From: Candidatus Sulfopaludibacter sp. SbA3
GTDB lineage: Bacteria; Pseudomonadota; Alphaproteobacteria; Caulobacterales; Hyphomonadaceae
Direction of reading: 5' to 3'
DNA length: 61,951 nt
NCBI GenBank assembly: GCA_945913285.1
Contig: CAMEDD010000013.1
Coordinates: forward strand, 1 to 61,951
In this document: positions 11,810 to 36,800 of the stretch, in pieces
Numbering within the stretch: the first letter of the stretch is position 1
How the letters are laid out: every line of letters begins with the position of its first letter
Notes under the pieces: model-generated
The model's database searches: none
What the model was told of the DNA's origin: nothing
What the model saw: the letters and a program-made list of their open reading frames with translations, nothing else
Program-made: the position numbers and the translations under genes

Positions 11810-13321
11810 ATGGAGCGGGAGTTGAAGGGCGTGGATACGATTGCGCGGGTTCGGCGGGCGTTTCATCAGCAAGGATGGTCGGTGAAGCGGATCAGCCGGG
11901 AGCTGCATGTTTCGCGCAACACTGTCCGCAAGATACTGAGGACCGGCGAGACCGAGTTCACCTATGAGCGCGAAGTCCAACCGATGCCGAAGCTCGGCGA
12001 CTGGACCGGTGAGCTGGACCGGCTGCTTGCCTCGAACGAGGGCAAGGCGTCGAAGGAGCGCCTGACGCTGATCCGGATCTTCGAGGAGCTTCGCGCGCTT
12101 GGATATGAGGGCGGCTATGACTCCGTCCGTCGCTATGCCCGCTCCTGGTCGAAGGCGCGCGGCGCGGCGATGGCCGACGCCTATGTCCCACTGTTTTACG
12201 AGCCCGGCGAAGCCTACCAGTTCGATTGGAGCCACGAGATTATCGTCGTCAACGGCGTGACGACGCCGGTGAAGGTTGCCCACGTCCGGCTCTGTCATAG
12301 CCGGATGATGTTCGTGCGGGCCTACATGCGCGAGAGCCAGGAGATGGTCTTTGACGCGCACGACCGCGCGTTCGCGTTCTTCCGCGGCGCCTGTACGCGC
12401 GGCATCTACGACAATATGAAGACGGCGGTCGATGCGATCTTCTCTGGCAAGACCCGCCAGTACAACCGGCGCTTTCTGCAGATGTGCAGCCACTACCTTG
12501 TCGAGCCGGTAGCGTGCACACCCGCGTCTGGCTGGGAGAAGGGTCAAGTCGAGAACCAGGTCGGCCTGGTGCGCGAACGCTTCTTCACGCCGCGCGTGCG
12601 CGTAAAGAGCCTCGGCGAGCTCAATGCCTGGCTGATTGATCGCTGCGTCGCCTATGCCAAGGCGCACAAGCATCCCGAGCATGCCGATCTGACGATCTGG
12701 GATGCTTTCGAGCAAGAGCGCCCCTCGCTGGTGCCCTATGTCGGGCCATTTGACGGTTTTCACTCCGTGCCCGCATCAGTCTCGAAGACCTGCTTGGTCC
12801 GATATGACAACAACCGATACTCGGTGATCTCGACGGCGGTCGGCAGGCCGGTTGAAGTACACGCCTATGCCGAGCGGATTGTCATGCGCCAGGACGGCAA
12901 GGTCGTCGGCGAGCACCCCCGCTCCTTTGGCCGGGGCGAGACCCTCTTCGATCCGTGGCACTATGTGCCCGTTCTTACCCGCAAGCCTGGCGCGCTGCGC
13001 AATGGCGCGCCGTTCCGCGAGTGGAGACTGCCGGCCGCGATGACCTCCGTGCGCCGCAAGCTGAAGACCGCGCCAGACGGTGACCGGCAGATGGTCGCGA
13101 TCCTCGGATGTGTGTCCGTCGATGGGCTCGCTGCTGTCGAGGCAGCCTGCGAGGAAGCGCTTGAACAAGGCGTCTTCTCTGCGCCCGTCATCCTCAACAT
13201 CCTCGCGCGCCGACGCGATCCTGCGCCCGTGCCTTTGTTGCAGACACCCGCAACCCTGCAGCTCGCCCACGCACCCGTGGCCGACTGCGCCCGATACGAC
13301 CGCCTGAGAAGGATAGACTGA
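11810..13321 (+). CDS. istA: IS21 transposase IstA
   Basis: 503 residues. An N-terminal helix-turn-helix ([30 protein letters not shown], about residues 14-43) recognises the element ends. A DDE integrase core follows: YQFDWSHE carries the first Asp, [11 protein letters not shown] the second, and [12 protein letters not shown] the Glu. A C-terminal beta region contains [10 protein letters not shown]. IstA cuts and joins DNA together with the IstB ATPase. ATG 11810 follows a GAGCGG stretch. The stop is one base before the istB ATG, so translation is probably coupled. Confidence 0.93.
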
Positions 13322-13322
13322 C

Positions 13323-14051
13323 ATGGACCGGACAGACGTTCTCGACCTCATGGCAACGCTCAAGCTCTATGGCATGCGCAGCGCCTATGACGAGATCATG
13401 AGCAATGCCATCAAGCGCCAGCACGAACCGCCAAGGCTCGTCGGTGACCTCCTGCAGTCGGAGATCGCAGAGAAGCAGGCGCGCTCGATCCGTTACCAGC
13501 TCACCGTCGCCAAGCTACCGCTGGCGAAAGATCTTGAGGAGTTCGAGTTTAACGGCACGCCGATCAACGAAGCCCTCGTGCGCGATCTCCTCTCCGGCGC
13601 CTTCGTTGCCGACCAGCGCAATGTCGTGCTCGTCGGCGGCACTGGTACAGGCAAGACCCATCTCGCGATCGCCATCGCGCGCGCACTCATTCGCAGCGGC
13701 ACGCGCGGCCGCTTCTTCAATACGGTCGATCTCGTCAACAATCTCGAGATCGAAGCGCGAAGCGGCAAACAGGGCCGTCTCGCCGATTACCTGACCCGGC
13801 TCGACTTCGTGATCATGGACGAACTCGGTTACCTGCCGTTCGCGCAGGCTGGCGGCCAGCTGCTGTTCCACCTCATCAGTAAACTCTACGAACGTACCTC
13901 GATCATCGTCACCACCAACCTCGCGTTCGGTGAGTGGCCGACCGTGTTCGGCGATGCAAAGATGACCACTGCACTTCTCGACCGGCTCACGCATCACTGC
14001 GAAATCATCGAGACCGGAAACGACAGCTGGCGGTTCAAGAACCGCGCCTGA
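13323..14051 (+). CDS. istB: IS21 helper ATPase IstB
   Basis: 242 residues, DnaA/DnaC-type AAA+ ATPase. Walker A is GGTGTGKTH (about residues 109-117), Walker B is [11 protein letters not shown], and sensor residues follow in [13 protein letters not shown]. An N-terminal helical region precedes the ATPase. IstB selects target DNA and stimulates IstA. Length and motifs are complete. It starts directly after istA. Confidence 0.93.
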
Positions 14052-17354: not shown

Positions 17355-17825
17355 CTACTGAGGCAGCTTGTGCCAAGCGTTCAATGCGTCATCCGGGATC
17401 TGCCACCGACGCACGTCGCCGTTTGTGGGGTTTCGCTTGTTCCAGTCCGAGTTGTCCCAGATTACACGGGTCTCCATCGACGTCAGAATAAACATCTCGA
17501 CCAGCGCAGGGTCGGCAAGCTGATCAGGTTCGCGAGGCGCCGACACGAAGAACCAAAACTGACTTGCATCGATCGACGGCCTCGTCCGAACAAACCAAGT
17601 TGGACGGCGCGCGCGGTCTGCCTTCACCTCAACGCCGAAGGTCACGCCAGCTGGGCTCGTGACCTCCAGGTCATACTGAAACGTGTTATTGTTCACGGGA
17701 CGAACTCGGAAGCCGCGCTCGCGAAGCGCTTCCGCCACCAAGACCTCCCCCAACGCGCCTGTCGACTTCGCCAATATGGACGTCAACAACTCTGGATGCC
17801 GCTCGGCAATTTCCCGGATTTTCAT
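17355..17825 (-). CDS. PD-(D/E)XK nuclease-like protein
   Basis: 156 residues. A core pattern typical of restriction-endonuclease-like folds is visible: GE at residues 26-27 in a helix (STGALGEVLVAEAL), then YD at 51-52 (FQYDLEV), then VEVKAD with Glu66 and Lys68, giving E...D...ExK. This arrangement supports a metal-dependent nuclease or a degenerate relative. The C-terminal half (WFVRTRPSIDASQFWFFV, RRWQIP) is typical of small standalone members. No partner methylase is adjacent. It may act in the defence cargo of the island or be a DNA-processing enzyme. Confidence 0.6.
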   Translation of the reverse strand: MKIREIAERHPELLTSILAKSTGALGEVLVAEALRERGFRVRPVNNNTFQYDLEVTSPAGVTFGVEVKADRARRPTWFVRTRPSIDASQFWFFVSAPREPDQLADPALVEMFILTSMETRVIWDNSDWNKRNPTNGDVRRWQIPDDALNAWHKLPQ

Positions 17826-18624: not shown

Positions 18625-19002
18625 ATGAACCCCAACCTCCACTGGCTATCCGACTTCCCTCCGCAGAAGCGCATGGGACTTTTCCTGTCCGAAGCACTCG
18701 ACGGCGAGGACCACGACGAGCGAGTCAGGCAGCTTGCAACCGAGCTCGGCTGTAAGAACGGCAAGACCGTCGAGATGTGGAAGACCGGCGCGGCCAAGGT
18801 CCCCCTGCGAATGCTGATCCCGCTCGCGCGGCACACAGGCATCGATGTGTCAGAGTGGCTGCCGCTCTGGATCGCTGCTGAGATCGGCAGCGACGACGGC
18901 GACCAGCTCTACAAGGCCTCGCAACGGATGCTGTCCGTCTGGGAGTGGAACTTGATAGCGGTGGCGCGCGACATCTATCGCGGCGACGAGGACGATGATT
19001 GA
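18625..19002 (+). CDS. Small HTH-like protein
   Basis: 125 residues with a strong ribosome-binding site (AAAAAGGAG) about eight bases before ATG 18625. The middle (RVRQLATELGCKNGKTVEMWKTGAAKVPLRMLIPLARHTGIDVSEWLPLW) has the spacing of a Cro/CI-type helix-turn-helix in which KVPLRMLIPLARHTGI would be the C-terminal helices. Acidic tail (DEDDD). Probably a phage- or island-type regulator. It lies convergent to the AlbA_2 gene and could regulate the island. Confidence 0.5.
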   Translation: MNPNLHWLSDFPPQKRMGLFLSEALDGEDHDERVRQLATELGCKNGKTVEMWKTGAAKVPLRMLIPLARHTGIDVSEWLPLWIAAEIGSDDGDQLYKASQRMLSVWEWNLIAVARDIYRGDEDDD

Positions 19003-19062: not shown

Positions 19063-19863
19063 TTAAGGCACAATCCCAAGTCGCGCTTTGCGGGCTTCGA
19101 TGAATTGCTCGATAGCAAGGATGTCTACATTTTCAGTGCTGGACCCCCGTCGAGTGTAGATGCCGAACTGCCGCAACTCGGAGCATTTGCAGAAAGTCAA
19201 CTTTCGCCGCGGAGTAACCTCAGCGAGGATCATAGTCATACCATCATGCCTCCCGGCCTGCAGTCGCACGTGATGTAGAATTTGGTCGGGCTCGTGGAAA
19301 AACTGAGTAACAGCGCCTCGAAACGCCTTTAGCCAACCATCAACGCTTTGTTCCTTGGGGCATGCAATGGGGTATTCTTGTTCGATCCCCAAAATTGAAC
19401 GGTCGTCAGATATCCCGATGACCAAACTCCCACCGTCTTCATTGAGGAACCCACAAAGAGTCTTCATTGCAGAGTGGCAAACTTTCAAGCTCTTGAGTTG
19501 GTCGACGGTCGCCTTGGCATCAGACCTTCGCCGGTTGATGTCCAACCACAAAGTCGACTTTAGCTCTATCTGCGGCAACTCCCCTTCCTGCACCAGCCGA
19601 ACAATTCGAGCGCCAATCGCGTCAATTGAATTCGTATCGATTCGCCGAAAGACCAAGGGGTCCCTGGGGCCAACTGACGAAGGCTTGGGAACAATTTCTA
19701 TCCCGTGAGCGATCGCCTCGTCGATCAGAAACCCCATCGCCGCCAAGGGATCGTCCGCATACGGTCGAAATTCCGAAAACAAAAGAATCTCATCAAACGA
19801 CGACGTAACGCCGCCGGACGCGGCCTCTACGAACAATGTTGACAAGCGCCTCATGGCGATCAA
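19063..19863 (-). CDS. AlbA_2 (Schlafen-type) domain protein
   Basis: 266 residues. The AlbA_2 fold starts near residue 98: IELKST (100-104), then CGFLNEDGGSLVIGISDD (137-154) with the hallmark GG and GI.DD, followed by ILGIE and a Trp-containing helix (VDGWLKAF), and a closing V..EVTP strand. Schlafen-related AlbA_2 proteins bind or cut nucleic acids; many serve as regulators or defence effectors. The N-terminal 90 residues are specific to this protein. TTG 19863 overlaps the preceding stop (TTGA); an ATG at 19854 is an alternative. It forms a coupled pair with the DUF262 gene. Confidence 0.8.
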   Translation of the reverse strand: MIAMRRLSTLFVEAASGGVTSSFDEILLFSEFRPYADDPLAAMGFLIDEAIAHGIEIVPKPSSVGPRDPLVFRRIDTNSIDAIGARIVRLVQEGELPQIELKSTLWLDINRRRSDAKATVDQLKSLKVCHSAMKTLCGFLNEDGGSLVIGISDDRSILGIEQEYPIACPKEQSVDGWLKAFRGAVTQFFHEPDQILHHVRLQAGRHDGMTMILAEVTPRRKLTFCKCSELRQFGIYTRRGSSTENVDILAIEQFIEARKARLGIVP

Positions 19864-21776
19864 AGCCGTGCGATGGTCTTACTCAACAAATCACTCGCAA
19901 TAAGTTCTGCTCTCCGCTTCCAAAATTCCTGAACTCCCTCCAAATCCTGCACCATCAGCTCAAAGAGCTCTTTCGAAATGTAGGATGCTGACATTGCGTC
20001 CTGAATCGTCGTGTAAGAAATGTTACGCGCAGCAACAAAAGTCCCGGGAGACATATCGCGCCAATCCTTATTTGTCGCAGAACTCAATGGCATAAGATTG
20101 GCTGTTGAACCAACGTAATCCATCTCGCTCTTCTTCGAATTTAGCACCCGCTCATATTTGCCGTTGGCGTTTGTAGAACACCATTTGTTCGGGAAAATGT
20201 GGTGCAGCTCCACGCCGCCGGGACGGTCGAAAGCAATGTCGATTCCGGCGATATCATGCGGAGAACTTGCCAACATACAGAGCTGCACAGCGCTCTGGAG
20301 AGCTCCACCAGGCCGACCGTTGAGCAAGACTTCTACCATCCGCTCCTGGCTCGGAAGCTCCTTCTGCATGTGCTGCTCTAAAGCTTTTTGAGCTTCCTTA
20401 AGCCAAGAAGATGCGGATTCATGCTCTTGCCGCCGTTGTAGCGTCGCTTTTAAGAAGGTTATGTCGGCACCCAGTTGAGTCAGAAACCCCTGGTCGTACC
20501 TTCCCGACAAGGCGTTCCACCAGAAAAACGCTTTGTACAGAGCATTCAACTCATTCTTTTTCCACGGAGCGTCCTGTCTCGGGTAGTCCTTGGAAAGATG
20601 CCAACGCAGCGAAACATAAATTGCGGCAGATACCGGGTAGGGGCATCGGTCTGCAGGAAATTGTCCGCCTGCAACCAATTCTTGGAAGTCCGCCAAATAC
20701 GATGCGAATTCCTCGTTGAAAGCAACGATCTGACGCCAATGTGCTTTCGGCGTGTTGAGCAGATCCGGAGACTTTACGCTCTTGATTTCGCGGCTGACGC
20801 CTTTTGATTTTCTAGGAGGCTCGGGCTTTTCGGTTCTCGCGACGTAACACGCAGTAACAAATTGCGCTGTAAGCTCAGGGCGCTTTTCTGCAGAGACCCA
20901 ACCCACCGCACCGTGAAGTGACGACACCTCCTCCATCCAGTCCCGAATGGACAAAGGCGCGCCTTCTTTGGTCGTGTCAGTTAGGATCCAACTGTGGATC
21001 AAATCAACTGTGGATACCTTGACGCCGGTCTGGTTCAGAGTTTCGAAGATGTCACAAATCTTCCCCAAGTCGTAGTCGTTCGGAACTGTGTAAACTGCGA
21101 CTGTGGAGTGGAAGATGCCTTTGTACGCCGACCTTAATATGAGAGCGCGACGATCTAACTCCTCAGCATCCGGCATGCGGTCAGCAGGGTACACCTCCTT
21201 TTTTCTGACGACTTCAACGTAGTCCAGCCATTGCTCAGTCATGTTTGCTCCGTTGGCGGGTGACAACGGAAACAATCCCTCAGCGGCAAACGCGGCCAAC
21301 GACGTCAAGTTACGCTTCTTCAGTGCACGGTACTTATGAAAAGCTATTCGTTCGTTCGGATCTTTCGCCTTAACGTCCAGGAAGAACTGGCCGGCGAACT
21401 TGCGCTTTTCATATTGTTGACCAAAGTTGGCAAACAAGATTGCTAGAGCGGTGCACCGTTGCCGACCGTCAAGAATTGCTTTCGGTTGATGGCTTTTCTT
21501 CTCACCAAAGGTGCGTTTCACGACTTCGGCGTTGGCGGCATCCCAATCTGGCAGGGATATAAGTTCTAGATGTGTGCCGTCCTCTTCGTCGGATTGATCC
21601 CAGAGTGTCATCATCCCTATTGGATAGCCATCAATGATCGAAGTGGCCAGGGAAGTGATGGCAGAAACGTCCCAAACGAATTCTCGTTGAAACGCGGGTA
21701 CCAGCCACTCCCCTTCGGACAGCTTTTTGAGAACGTCGGGGACCGAAACGGCGGAGATAGGAATTGAGGTGCTCAA
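19860..21776 (-). CDS. DUF262/HNH (GmrSD-like) protein
   Basis: 638 residues. The N-terminal DUF262 domain shows FQREFVWD (29-36) and the NTP-binding-type DGRQR (103-107). The C-terminal region has an HNH-like nuclease motif with HHIFP (His525-His526) and NLMPL (about 560), then N-K-D-W. GmrSD-type enzymes use NTP hydrolysis to cut modified phage DNA, and many DUF262 proteins belong to defence islands. TTG 21776 is used with GGAAAGG upstream. Followed directly by the AlbA_2 gene with a four-base overlap, and encoded in AT-richer DNA beside an integrase. Confidence 0.85.
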   Translation of the reverse strand: MSTSIPISAVSVPDVLKKLSEGEWLVPAFQREFVWDVSAITSLATSIIDGYPIGMMTLWDQSDEEDGTHLELISLPDWDAANAEVVKRTFGEKKSHQPKAILDGRQRCTALAILFANFGQQYEKRKFAGQFFLDVKAKDPNERIAFHKYRALKKRNLTSLAAFAAEGLFPLSPANGANMTEQWLDYVEVVRKKEVYPADRMPDAEELDRRALILRSAYKGIFHSTVAVYTVPNDYDLGKICDIFETLNQTGVKVSTVDLIHSWILTDTTKEGAPLSIRDWMEEVSSLHGAVGWVSAEKRPELTAQFVTACYVARTEKPEPPRKSKGVSREIKSVKSPDLLNTPKAHWRQIVAFNEEFASYLADFQELVAGGQFPADRCPYPVSAAIYVSLRWHLSKDYPRQDAPWKKNELNALYKAFFWWNALSGRYDQGFLTQLGADITFLKATLQRRQEHESASSWLKEAQKALEQHMQKELPSQERMVEVLLNGRPGGALQSAVQLCMLASSPHDIAGIDIAFDRPGGVELHHIFPNKWCSTNANGKYERVLNSKKSEMDYVGSTANLMPLSSATNKDWRDMSPGTFVAARNISYTTIQDAMSASYISKELFELMVQDLEGVQEFWKRRAELIASDLLSKTIARL

Positions 21777-22016: not shown

Positions 22017-23021
22017 TCAATTCTCTTTCGGCATGGTCGCGCACGACCAGGTATTTTCTGGAATGCTGAGATGCGCGTACCGCGCCAGCATCCGGAAATC
22101 CCTGTGACCGCTGATTGAGGCGACCTCCGGCATGGAAAGTCCCCGCTCGAAGAGGCGCGACACGGCCTCATGCCGGAGATCATGGAAATGCAGGTCCTCA
22201 ATTCCGGCAGCCTCGACGGTCCTCTGCCAAGCCAGCTTGAACCCATTCTCGGTGACTTCGAACAAAGGAGTGCTGGGGTGCGCTTTGTCCAGGTGCGTGA
22301 GCTGCTCTCGAGCAACGGCTGACAGAGGGATCGTGCGAGGCACGCCTGTCTTCGTCTCCGGTATGTGGAGGGTCTTCATACCCTCCCCCAGATGACCACG
22401 CTGCGCGGCGAGGATCTCTCCGCGGCGCATAGCGGTCTCTACAGCGAGGATGATCATCGGCTTGAGGTATTTGACCCTCCGGTTCTCGGCAGCCGCAAGC
22501 AGGCGCACATACTCATCACCTTGGAGGCGCCTCGTGCGTGGCTTGTTGTTCTGCGGCTTGCGAACGCGCTTGAGCGGATTGTCGATGATAGGAAGTCCCC
22601 ATTCAGACTGCGCGATCTGGTACATGTGCTGAAGCGGCGAAAACTCGCGATTGAGCGCCGACGGTGACACACGCTTGAGACGCTCGTCCCGGTATCTGGC
22701 GAACTCAGCGGAAGTCACCTGAGAGAGGGGACGTTTTGCCAGCCGGTGCCTGAGGAACGCATTCAGAATGGTCTGCTCAACGTCACAGCTCTTCTTGTTG
22801 GCGCAGATTTCATCCCGGTAGCGGACAACCAGATCACCGAGCGTGATACGGTCCAGAACCCTGGGGTCATGCTTGAGGCAGCGGCGGTCGGCCTCGACCT
22901 CCATTTCGCGTCCCCAGGCCTCTGCGTCGGAGCGTTTTATGAAGCTTCGGGTGATGTTTGGTGCGTGCTGACGGCGGATCTGGACCTGCCAGCGGTCACC
23001 GCGTTTTCGGATACTAGGCAT
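22017..23021 (-). CDS. Tyrosine-family site-specific integrase
   Basis: 334 residues. The N-terminal SAM-like DNA-binding region spans about 55-150. The catalytic domain keeps the set Arg199 (AMRRGEI), Lys224 (TKTG), His280-x-x-Arg283 (HDLRH), His306 (GHR) and nucleophile Tyr315 (ARYAHL). Intact length. It integrates the island by recombination at a tRNA 3' end. ATG 23021, on the minus strand, is 105 bases from the 3' end of tRNA-Val, the usual arrangement for an integrative element. Confidence 0.92.
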   Translation of the reverse strand: MPSIRKRGDRWQVQIRRQHAPNITRSFIKRSDAEAWGREMEVEADRRCLKHDPRVLDRITLGDLVVRYRDEICANKKSCDVEQTILNAFLRHRLAKRPLSQVTSAEFARYRDERLKRVSPSALNREFSPLQHMYQIAQSEWGLPIIDNPLKRVRKPQNNKPRTRRLQGDEYVRLLAAAENRRVKYLKPMIILAVETAMRRGEILAAQRGHLGEGMKTLHIPETKTGVPRTIPLSAVAREQLTHLDKAHPSTPLFEVTENGFKLAWQRTVEAAGIEDLHFHDLRHEAVSRLFERGLSMPEVASISGHRDFRMLARYAHLSIPENTWSCATMPKEN

Positions 23022-23126: not shown

Positions 23127-23201
<75 letters not shown>

Positions 23202-33845: not shown

Positions 33846-36800
33846 ATGCTCCTGTCCGATACCTCGATCAAGCGTCCGGTCTTTGCCTGGGTGCTTGCCC
33901 TTGTCCTGATCGTGTTCGGACTCGTCGCCTTCTCGCGCCTGGCGCTGCGCGAATATCCCGATATCGACCCGCCGGTTGTCTCGATCTCGACGAACTATCC
34001 AGGGGCCTCCGCATCGGTTGTGGAAACCCGCATCACCCAGGTGATCGAAGACCGTATTGCGGGTGTCGAAGGCGTTCGCTTCATCAACTCCCGCTCCTCT
34101 GACGGACGCTCAAACATCTCGATCGAATTCCGGATCGATCGTGACATCGAGTCGGCTGCCAACGATGTACGCGACCGGGTATCCGGCGTCGTTGACCGCC
34201 TGCCGGACGAAGCCGATCCTCCGGAAGTCCAGAAGGCCGACGCCGATGATGACGTCATTCTCTGGCTCAACCTCGCGAGTGAAAAACTCGCGACCCCCGA
34301 ACTCACGGACTATGCCAACCGTTACCTCGTGGACCGCTTCTCCGCACTCGACGGCGTCGCCCGGGTGCAGGTCGGCGGCGCGCGCGAGTACGCGATGCGC
34401 GTCTGGATCGACCGCCGCGCGCTCGCCGCCCGCGGACTGACCTCCGGTGATATCGAACGCGCCCTCCGGTCCGAGAACATCGAAGCGCCCGCCGGCAACC
34501 TCGAATCCGGCGATCTCTATTACACAATGCGGATCGACCGCGCCTTCCGGTCCGTCGAAGATTTCGCCGGCCTCGTCATCGCGCAGGGCGATGGCTACCT
34601 CGTCCGGCTCAGCGATGTCGCCCGCGTCGAACGCGGCACGGTCGACGACCGCACGACCTTTCGCGGCAACGGTGCGCCCATGGTCGGGCTTGGCATCGTC
34701 AAGCAGTCGACTGCCAACACCGTTGACGTCGCCAAGGCCGCAAAGGACCTTTCCGCCGAACTCAACACTTCCCTGCCGGACGGCATGCAGATCTACCAGG
34801 CCTTCGACAGCTCCGTCTTCGTCGAAGCCTCAATCCACGAAGTCTGGCTGACCCTCGCGATTACAGTCGGCCTCGTCACGCTCGTCATTTTCCTGTTCCT
34901 CGGCAGCCTGCGCGCAACGCTGATCCCGGCCGTCACTGTGCCCGTCTCGATCATCGCGACTTTCATCATCATGTATGCATTCGGCCTGTCGCTGAATCTC
35001 CTTACCTTGCTCGCCCTTGTGCTCGCCATCGGCCTTATCGTGGACGACGCCATCGTTGTGCTGGAGAACATCTACCGCCGCATGGAAGAGCTGGGCGAAA
35101 CCCCGCTCGTCGCCGCCTATAACGGCACGCGCCAGGTGGGATTCGCGGTTGTGGCGACCACGCTTGTGCTGATGGCGGTATTCATCCCGATCACGTTCAT
35201 AGGCGGCAATACTGGCCGTCTGTTCACGGAGTTTGCGGTGGCGATTGCCGCCTCGGTCGGCTTCTCTATGTTCGTCGCCTTGTCGCTGTCCCCGATGATC
35301 GCTTCGAAGATTCTCAAGCCACATGGCGAAGACCGCAAAGGCGTGATGGCCATCCTGCCAAACGCGGTGGACCGTGTATTCGACTCGATCAAGTGGGCCT
35401 ATGGCCACATCTTTGACGTCGTGGTTCGGTTTCCGGTCTTCCTTGCGATAGGCCTCGTGGCGGCATTCGGCGCAATCTGGCTCCTGTTCCAGAACCTCGG
35501 CCAGGAATACGCACCGCGTGAGGACCGCGGCACCTTCTTCATCTCCGTCCGTGGTCCGGAAGGCGCCTCGTTCGAGTACATGTCGAAGTATCTTGACGAG
35601 ATCGAACGCCGCCTCCTTCCGTATACGGAATCTGGCGAGATCAGCCGCCTTCTCGTGCGCGCACCGGGCTTCGGGTCAAATGCCTACAACCAGGGTAACG
35701 TCGTGGCCGTGCTCGACACGTGGGGAAATCGCCGCCCCGCCGACGAAGTGATCCAGGAAGTCAACGCCAAGATGGCGGACCTTCCCGGCATTCGCGCCAC
35801 GGCCGTAATGCGCCAGGGGCTCTCCGGCGGCGGCGGGGGTGGCGGCGGCAAGCCGGTCCAGTTCGTGATCGGCGGGCCGTCCTATGAACAGGTCGTCGCC
35901 TGGCGCGACACATTCGTCGCCGCCCTCGAAGCAGACAATCCGGGAATCACCGACGTGGACTGGGACTATAAGGAAACCCAGCCGCAATACCGGATTGAGA
36001 TCGACTATGCCCGCGCCGCAGACCTCGGCGTCACGGTCTCTGAAATCGGCTCGACCCTGCAGACCATGCTCGGCTCCCGCCGGGTGACCACGTACATTGA
36101 AGATGGCGAAGAGTATGACGTCCTTCTTGAGGGTTTGCGCTCCGAGCAATCGACGCCCAATGACGTTCAGAACATCTATGTGCGCTCGTCCCGGTCTGGC
36201 GAACTGATCCCGCTCTCCAGCGTCATCACCATCCAGCCCTTCGCCGATAGCCCATCGCTCAACCGGTACAACCGCGTGCGCGCCATAACGATCGACGCCA
36301 ACCTTGCGCCTGGAACCACCCTCGGCGCGGCGCTGACGGGAATGGAGCGCGTCGCCCGCGACGTTCTCCCCGAGGAAGCCTCGATTGACTTCAAGGGTCA
36401 GTCGCTCGAGTTCCGAAATTCCGGCGGCTCCATCCTTTTCGTTTTGGGCCTCGGCCTGCTGATCGTCTTCCTCGTGCTCGCTGCTCAGTTTGAAAGCTGG
36501 GTCCACCCGCTGGTGATCATCCTCGCAGTCCCGGCCACCCTCGCGGGCGGCATGTTCGGCCTCTGGATCATGGGCCAGACCCTGAACATCTACACTCAGA
36601 TTGGCCTCATCATGCTGATCGGCCTCGCGGCCAAGAACGGCATCCTCGTCGTCGAGTTCGCCAACCAGCTGCGAGACGAGGGCAAGGATTTTGACACCGC
36701 GCTCAAGGAAGCCTCCCTCGCCCGCCTGCGCCCGATCCTGATGACGGGCCTGACCACCGCCGTCGGCGCCATCCCGCTGATCCTGACACATGGCGCCGGC

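Follow-up and report, generated by a model that had tools for sequence, protein, structure and literature searches.

The locus examined here raises the question of whether a GmrSD-like restriction gene and the Schlafen-type AlbA_2 gene directly behind it act as one system and, if so, what the second gene contributes. Both lie in a 61,951-nucleotide (nt) stretch of contig CAMEDD010000013.1 of Candidatus Sulfopaludibacter sp. SbA3 (assembly GCA_945913285.1), the whole of which is referred to as the window. The original prediction, made from the letters alone, had described a GmrSD-like DUF262/HNH gene and an AlbA_2 gene as a candidate two-gene defence system; both are found where it placed them, as intact minus-strand open reading frames (ORFs) with GmrSD_N and SLFN_AlbA_2 domains by Pfam. 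From comparative sequence analysis we regard it as nearly certain that the two genes, here called A and B, are one functional unit, and as very likely that the unit has a defence function. The best explanation of the whole, held at about even confidence, is a mobile type IV restriction system with a Schlafen-type nuclease effector, probably acting against RNA. The features concerned are the following.

19860..21776, minus strand: gene A, a GmrSD-type protein of 638 amino acids (aa) with DUF262 (nucleoside triphosphate (NTP)-binding, ParB/Srx fold) and a C-terminal His-Me/HNH region (intact ORF, Pfam, profile match to BrxU).
20985..21734, minus strand: DUF262 domain of A, with Q30-R31, D103-G-R-Q-R107 and F244-xxx-N248 (Pfam; motif positions invariant in 5/5 save residue 105).
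20061..20204, minus strand: HNH/His-Me region of A, with L524-H525-H526-I-F-P529, N560 and N569 (invariant in 5/5 save F528; weak alignment to DHIYP of BrxU; PF07510 below cut-off).
19063..19863, minus strand: gene B, a 266-aa AlbA_2 (Schlafen-type) protein with an N-terminal extension of ~90 residues (intact ORF, Pfam, family alignment).
19114..19596, minus strand: AlbA_2 (Schlafen-type) domain of B, with putative carboxylates Glu95, Glu100 and Asp154 (limits judged from the alignment).

Within the subfamily of A, the two genes are found together at every complete locus. A search of 150 related genomes gave some DUF262 match in 17, only one of which was close besides the window (G031; 40% identical along almost the entire length), and there a B relative lies directly behind the A relative. 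The GTDB contig scan returned 29 loci, three of them full-length at ≥36% identity: L034 (the same contig as G031:C59), L035 from Thalassovita aquimarina, and L036. The remaining loci were distant from A, and a sixth match, L039, was not counted because the contig end cuts it after 77 residues. A draw of 398 genomes from the phylum added one further member, in G281 (locus L076), so that the complete loci are the window, L034, L035, L036 and L076. B is directly downstream of A in all five, each B carries AlbA_2 by Pfam, and the genes are separated by gaps of 0-5 nt or share a 4-nt overlap (GTGA in relatives). The four relatives are 36-40% identical to the window in A and 21-24% in B, and the flanks of the pair differ among loci, including a phosphate-transporter-like gene, a tyrosine integrase or a transposase (named by eye).

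Translational coupling through a TTGA overlap had also been proposed for the window. The final bases of A are indeed TTGA, in which TTG is a possible start of B; however, an in-frame ATG lies 9 bases past it (19854-19852), and because B has two candidate starts the overlap is possible but not certain. Either way the genes are ≤5 bases apart. The TTG start of A aligns within two residues of the ATG starts of its relatives. A genome contig scan with B alone gave no match, nor did a viral contig scan with the B alignment. Viral contig scans with A returned distant DUF262 genes only (13 and 17 loci), and no phage-borne copy is claimed.

The same two domains also occur in one chain. Eight proteins of 701-756 aa, from bacteria and haloarchaea, join GmrSD_N to AlbA_2 in the same order as A and B: those of G115, G746 (712 aa), Sinorhizobium meliloti pSymA, halophilic archaeon DL31, Haloquadratum walsbyi PL100, G395, G301 and G423. 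GmrSD_C was detected in two of the eight at E 0.003 or better, which is under the cut-off. The G115 fusion sits between HsdS and HsdR, a position described as a frequent site of GmrSD genes (PMC11411939).

Such linkage is uncommon outside these groups. The background sample was a single draw of 289 Alphaproteobacteria genomes, with rows counted by the author of the analysis, and it held 105 DUF262 matches, spread over 74 genomes, and 54 AlbA_2 matches, spread over 43. Close linkage of the two was seen in the window and G746 only (1/104 matches other than the window), and the next-nearest pair, in G695, is 31 kb apart. From the 105 matches a control set of 40 was taken, mostly high-scoring and including one from the window's own genome; with 3-5 kb fetched for each, AlbA_2 was present in the fetched stretch of 0/40. 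AlbA_2 coupling is not a general habit of DUF262 genes, and because DUF262 genes overall are without AlbA_2, the link belongs to particular lineages. The question posed with the prediction, whether AlbA_2 is an unrelated neighbour in most genomes, is answered in favour of the prediction for the A subfamily, where the two are paired in 5/5 loci; DUF262 genes generally are unpaired. Long DUF262 proteins of Nostoc and Paracoccus have no AlbA_2 by Pfam. One of the DUF262 proteins seen, of 772 aa on a Nostoc plasmid (L093:4501-6819), follows DISARM-type genes (drmC, helicase, PD-(D/E)XK) and has an unassigned C-terminal region. A second DUF262 gene of the window's own genome (551 aa; G000:C10:56147-56788, L199) belongs to another subfamily and has no AlbA_2 in the stretch fetched.

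The history of the union was examined in trees of each domain. For the DUF262 trees, the AlbA_2 part of every fusion was removed first. The 58-row tree requires 4 changes to place its 13 AlbA_2-linked rows, with 4 forced by well-supported branches; a 28-row rebuild, from which the far half and the long row L188 were dropped, still has 4 changes forced by well-supported branches. The approximately unbiased (AU) test rejects a single clade both for all linked rows (p-AU 3.58e-41) and for the fusions alone (p-AU 3.19e-9). Four separate DUF262-AlbA_2 unions would be the simplest reading of these trees. It is because of the 5/5 pairing in differing flanks, the eight fusions and this repeated union that A and B are taken as one unit, in agreement with the two-gene system first suggested.

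For the AlbA_2 trees, one match with an internal stop (L143) was dropped from both. In the 64-domain tree the five B proteins, five fusions, two methylase fusions, a solo gene and a Sel1 protein share one branch (95/88). The 74-domain tree also includes membrane-type proteins, the fusions with BrxL and with the helicase, and the three DUF262 fusions found later, and gives the branch 96/78 without the Sel1 protein (23 rows) and 95/57 with it (24 rows). Here the fusions are scattered among other carriers and form no single clade, so that this AlbA_2 branch moves between partners. The carriers seen are mostly DNA-directed defence enzymes, the exceptions being the membrane protein and the solo gene.

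Profile searches with B recovered the same range of carriers. The 329 genomes of the phylum that were searched yielded ten matches at E ≤1e-10: the window, the G281 pair, the fusions of G115, G395, G301 and G423, a protein with an unrecognised N-terminus in G255, and membrane-type proteins in G196, G239 and G282 (membrane part judged by eye). Three matches at E 1e-8 were found in 385 genomes of the class, namely the window, the G746 fusion and G658, in which AlbA_2 lies behind a type I methylase/specificity-like protein. B relatives were also found among the 150 related genomes, where loci were examined in G002, G085, G035, G069 and G138. The G002 protein (L014) combines BrxL_ATPase, a PLD-like domain and AlbA_2, and that of G138 (L011:1210-3207, G138:C1) is the end of a 2048-aa frame with a helicase, an MTES_1575 restriction endonuclease (REase), DUF3320 and a C-terminal AlbA_2. 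A type I operon on a Pseudoalteromonas plasmid contains two AlbA_2 proteins (L087:4252-6603 and L087:9448-11433), one joined to N6_Mtase and one to HATPase_c_4. A short protein with AlbA_2 only (Pfam) was seen in L004, and those of L003, L006, L010 and L013 are alike by eye. The plasmid matches H2, H3 and H75 are also AlbA_2 genes, and neither the annotation nor inspection by eye showed DUF262 in the stretch.

Two further kinds of AlbA_2 protein were encountered. A short protein in which predicted membrane helices (by eye) precede AlbA_2 recurs at L160:5084-5890, L164:4597-5400, L163:5275-5847, L089:5575-6480 and L004:1150-1977; it falls on the AlbA_2 branch of B, with no restriction context seen. 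At L130:3875-5659, AlbA_2 stands behind Sel1-type repeats in a 594-aa protein that is placed near this branch.

What each gene may do was considered from its domains and conserved residues. Gene A matches GmrSD_N (PF03235) at E 2.8e-24 over residues 15-264, its profile matches BrxU among solved structures (PDB 7p9k, E 3.4e-17), and its best PADLOC model is HEC-05 (E 1.8e-29). Q30, R31, D103, G104, Q106, R107, F244 and N248 are invariant in 5/5 A proteins, while residue 105 is R or K and never Q; the DGRQR motif named in the prediction thus holds for the window, but the four relatives carry DGKQR. GmrSD_C (PF07510) stays under its curated cut-off (E 0.098, 13 vs 23 bits), and the HNH region was recognised because its residues are conserved, without a significant Pfam match. 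H526, N560 and N569 are invariant in 5/5, and align with the HNH region of BrxU only in a weak, 2.2-bit second stretch. In that alignment the His of DHIYP matches His526 and His525 occupies the Asp position, so that His526 is more likely the catalytic His than His525, which had been proposed.

Gene B matches SLFN_AlbA_2 (PF04326) at E 1.2e-9 (39.1 vs the 25.3-bit curated cut-off), and the B proteins of the four relatives score 44.6-60.4 bits. By Pfam, the five B proteins have no DUF262, helix-turn-helix or HATPase domain, and SLFN_AlbA_2 is the sole hit in window B at E up to 1; PADLOC models matched neither window B nor three of its relatives. The N-terminal extension is common to the B proteins, with few invariant positions. 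Among solved structures the B profile matches Schlafens, SLFN12 included (7eg0; whole-chain E 2.3e-7). Glu95 and Glu100 (E-x4-E) and Asp154 are present in 5/5 B proteins, and both Glu residues with an Asp at 153 or 154 are retained in 5/5 B proteins and 8/8 fusions. The invariant Asp of B is aligned with the Asp of GLNEDK in SLFN12, the E-x4-E lying outside that profile alignment. The SLFN13 counterparts E205/E210/D248 are catalytic (PMC5862951), the equivalent AlbA_2 site of SAMD9L is required for antiviral activity, and SAMD9 is reported to cleave tRNA-Phe (both PMC11221667). With these precedents we lean towards a catalytic role for B, and consider the case for RNA as its target to be evenly balanced.

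The following scheme would account for gene order, domains, conserved motifs, conserved pairing and repeated fusion. A and B would be two subunits of one mobile anti-invader system, most likely anti-phage. A would be a type IV GmrSD/BrxU-like enzyme whose DUF262 domain binds NTP, recognises invading DNA, probably in modified form, and permits the HNH nuclease at the C-terminus to cleave or nick that DNA. B would be a Schlafen-type nuclease effector bound to A; on A firing, its putative Glu95/Glu100/Asp154 site would cleave a second nucleic acid, most probably tRNA or another RNA, which would halt translation and phage growth.

Several observations weigh against this scheme or the evidence used for it. 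The carboxylates are not peculiar to B: among 51 other AlbA_2 rows the first Glu is kept in 49/51, the second Glu or Asp in 50/51 and the Asp at 153 in 31/51, and because nearly all rows keep both Glu residues, whatever the partner, the site marks the AlbA_2 family and not a role here. For SLFN5, tRNA binding without cleavage is reported (PMC11221667). Four of the ten B-profile matches in the 329 genomes are without DUF262, three of these being a membrane protein, and that membrane protein shares the AlbA_2 branch of B. Support for that branch fell from 95/88 (64 rows) to 96/78 or 95/57 (74 rows), and its clustering is partly due to selection because most rows were found via likeness to B. Window B shares just 21-24% identity with its relatives. 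In the DUF262 trees, the change count cannot separate gain from loss, the AU groups were named after the tree had been seen, and a long-branch warning in both trees concerns branches meeting that of A (in the 28-row tree, Haladaptatus with A). The HNH region of A is below the Pfam cut-off, and AlphaFold models of B and A from 4-row alignments, with mean predicted local distance difference test (pLDDT) values of 52 and 54, were too poor to use.

The best surviving alternative, which we think unlikely though worth weighing, is that B has no catalytic activity and serves as a subunit for nucleic-acid binding or assembly, with its AlbA_2 domain holding DNA, a modified base or a DNA end for A, and the HNH of A being the sole cutter. 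Proteins in which a role on DNA would be natural (type I methylase-like, N6_Mtase, BrxL-PLD and REase-helicase) also carry AlbA_2 domains of this branch, DNA is bound in the SAMD9 AlbA_2 structure (PMC11221667), and TgvAB and GrwAB set a precedent for a two-protein requirement. The carboxylates retained in 5/5 B proteins and 8/8 fusions would perhaps be needless for binding, an argument that is weak since the whole family keeps them. Considerably less probable is that B is a regulator of the module, sensing nucleic acid and controlling expression, or inhibiting A until infection. Some AlbA_2 proteins are multidomain and regulator-like, such as the AlbA_2 and HATPase_c_4 protein of L087, and AlbA_2 proteins are often annotated as 'AlbA_2 transcriptional regulators'; however, the fusions put AlbA_2 on the enzyme itself, and the five B proteins have neither a helix-turn-helix nor a HATPase domain by Pfam. 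Very improbable is a toxin-antitoxin or guard arrangement in which B, a toxic RNase held by A, would be freed when phages attack A. Close coupling and the fixed order of A then B would suit it, and several bacterial defences cleave tRNA (PMC12851939), but A retains enzyme motifs of its own and fusions are ill-suited to a separable antitoxin. That the genes are neighbours by chance on a mobile element and share no function, as might be thought since DUF262 genes overall lack AlbA_2, is already contradicted by the 5/5 pairing, the eight fusions and the four tree changes, and can practically be dismissed.

If B proves to be an RNase, the pair would be a compact system in which sensing of DNA modification drives attack on both DNA and RNA. 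It would also be the counterpart, in bacteria and archaea, of the Schlafen and SAMD9 AlbA_2 nucleases that act against viruses, coupled to a trigger of a known kind. To our knowledge, descriptions of type IV enzymes concern action on DNA. More tentatively, and with somewhat less than even confidence, we suggest a recurrent bacterial and haloarchaeal architecture in which a modification-sensing type IV DNA nuclease and a Schlafen-type RNase, in operon or fusion, convert one recognition event into DNA restriction and RNA (tRNA) cleavage. The AlbA_2 lineage, given its occurrence as a tail on type I methylase-like, BrxL-PLD and REase-helicase proteins as well, would then be a general RNA-targeting add-on of DNA-directed defence. 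Were the scheme true, the activation of prokaryotic Schlafen domains would become directly testable, and the fusions are single-chain versions that are easy to express.

The mobility of the pair is suggested by its surroundings. An integrase had been noted beside it, and one is found together with a tRNA gene that it adjoins, both directly upstream of A.

22017..23021, minus strand: tyrosine integrase of the probable carrier element, upstream of A (Phage_integrase by Pfam, E 2.5e-25).
23127..23201, minus strand: tRNA-Val(gac), the probable attachment site of the element (ARAGORN; G+C falls to its left).

G+C is 52-56% over ~15-23 kb, with ~52% across the A-B pair, against 61-67% over 22-29 kb. 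No second copy of the tRNA-Val 3' end was found within the window, and in the 98-contig assembly the sole other match carries 3 mismatches; because no second attachment copy was found in either, the far edge of the element is not delimited. A 156-aa protein at 17355-17825 (minus strand) weakly resembles families of the restriction-endonuclease fold (pPIWI_RE_REase E 0.009, NOV_C, NERD), each match lying under the cut-off, and is possibly a second nuclease of the element. A 125-aa ORF at 18625-19002 (plus strand) is convergent with gene B and outside the A-B operon; it may encode a DNA-binding protein (RovC_DNA-bd E 0.09, under cut-off). An IS21-type element occupies 11810-14051 (plus strand), with an ORF resembling istA (by eye) and, after it, an istB-like gene (PF01695, E 8.2e-76). 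PADLOC labels the latter, at 13323-14051, as DrmD (E 4.7e-38), and in view of the stronger IstB_IS21 match by Pfam a DISARM reading was rejected as a mislabelled istB-like gene. No PADLOC BREX match was obtained among the 16 ORFs of window positions 1-23300. Before position 33846 gene A is the only ORF of ≥600 aa; two ORFs of >1000 aa, at 33846 and 40117, are outside the region scanned with PADLOC.

The pair is a GmrSD-type restriction gene with a partner undescribed in the open-access literature searched, as the prediction had supposed. No description of DUF262 and AlbA_2 together was found in that literature, outside of which most subscription journals lie; DUF262 with Schlafen was found in PMC3710099 only, and GmrSD with Schlafen in PMC12839542 only. 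A survey of the GmrSD family names the extra domains DUF4268, DUF4357 and DNA_binding_1, and 'AlbA' and 'AAA_4' are absent from its text (PMC4619093).

Several known systems share parts of this arrangement. TgvAB and GrwAB are also two-gene operons with a DUF262-HNH protein, and both genes are needed there (PMC11411939, PMC12137116), but their second protein likewise carries DUF262, of which B has none by Pfam. The fusion VNG7073 (HEPN-ParB(DUF262)-HNH) similarly unites a restriction-type protein with an RNase domain, although of the HEPN and not the Schlafen/AlbA_2 fold, and the same paper lists HEPN-Schlafen fusions separately from HEPN-DUF262-HNH (PMC3710099). In ptuXYZ a DUF262 protein is again in an operon with a predicted RNase effector; however, PtuX is without HNH, the BECR RNase has a different fold and the operon also encodes a P-loop ATPase (PMC11980606). 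GmrSD-type HNH proteins and Schlafen RNases are both listed as auxiliary or backup effectors of BREX, but as separate additions uncoupled from each other (PMC12839542). With the Schlafen and SAMD9 AlbA_2 nucleases, including bacterial Schlafens, B shares the AlbA_2 domain and the E-x4-E...D carboxylates, yet B is a small protein with an N-terminal extension of its own, coupled to a restriction enzyme of type IV. The closest comparison is with BrxU/GmrSD (type IV, DUF262 and DUF1524), of which BrxU 7p9k is the best solved relative of A by sequence. Gene A shares their QR, DGxQR and FxxxN residues and, as far as the weak HNH alignment shows, the domain order and the His-Asn-Asn residues. It differs in forming its own long-branched subfamily apart from BrxU, with DGRQR/DGKQR in place of DGQQR and LHHI[FY]P in place of DHIYP, and in having an AlbA_2 partner at 5/5 of its loci.

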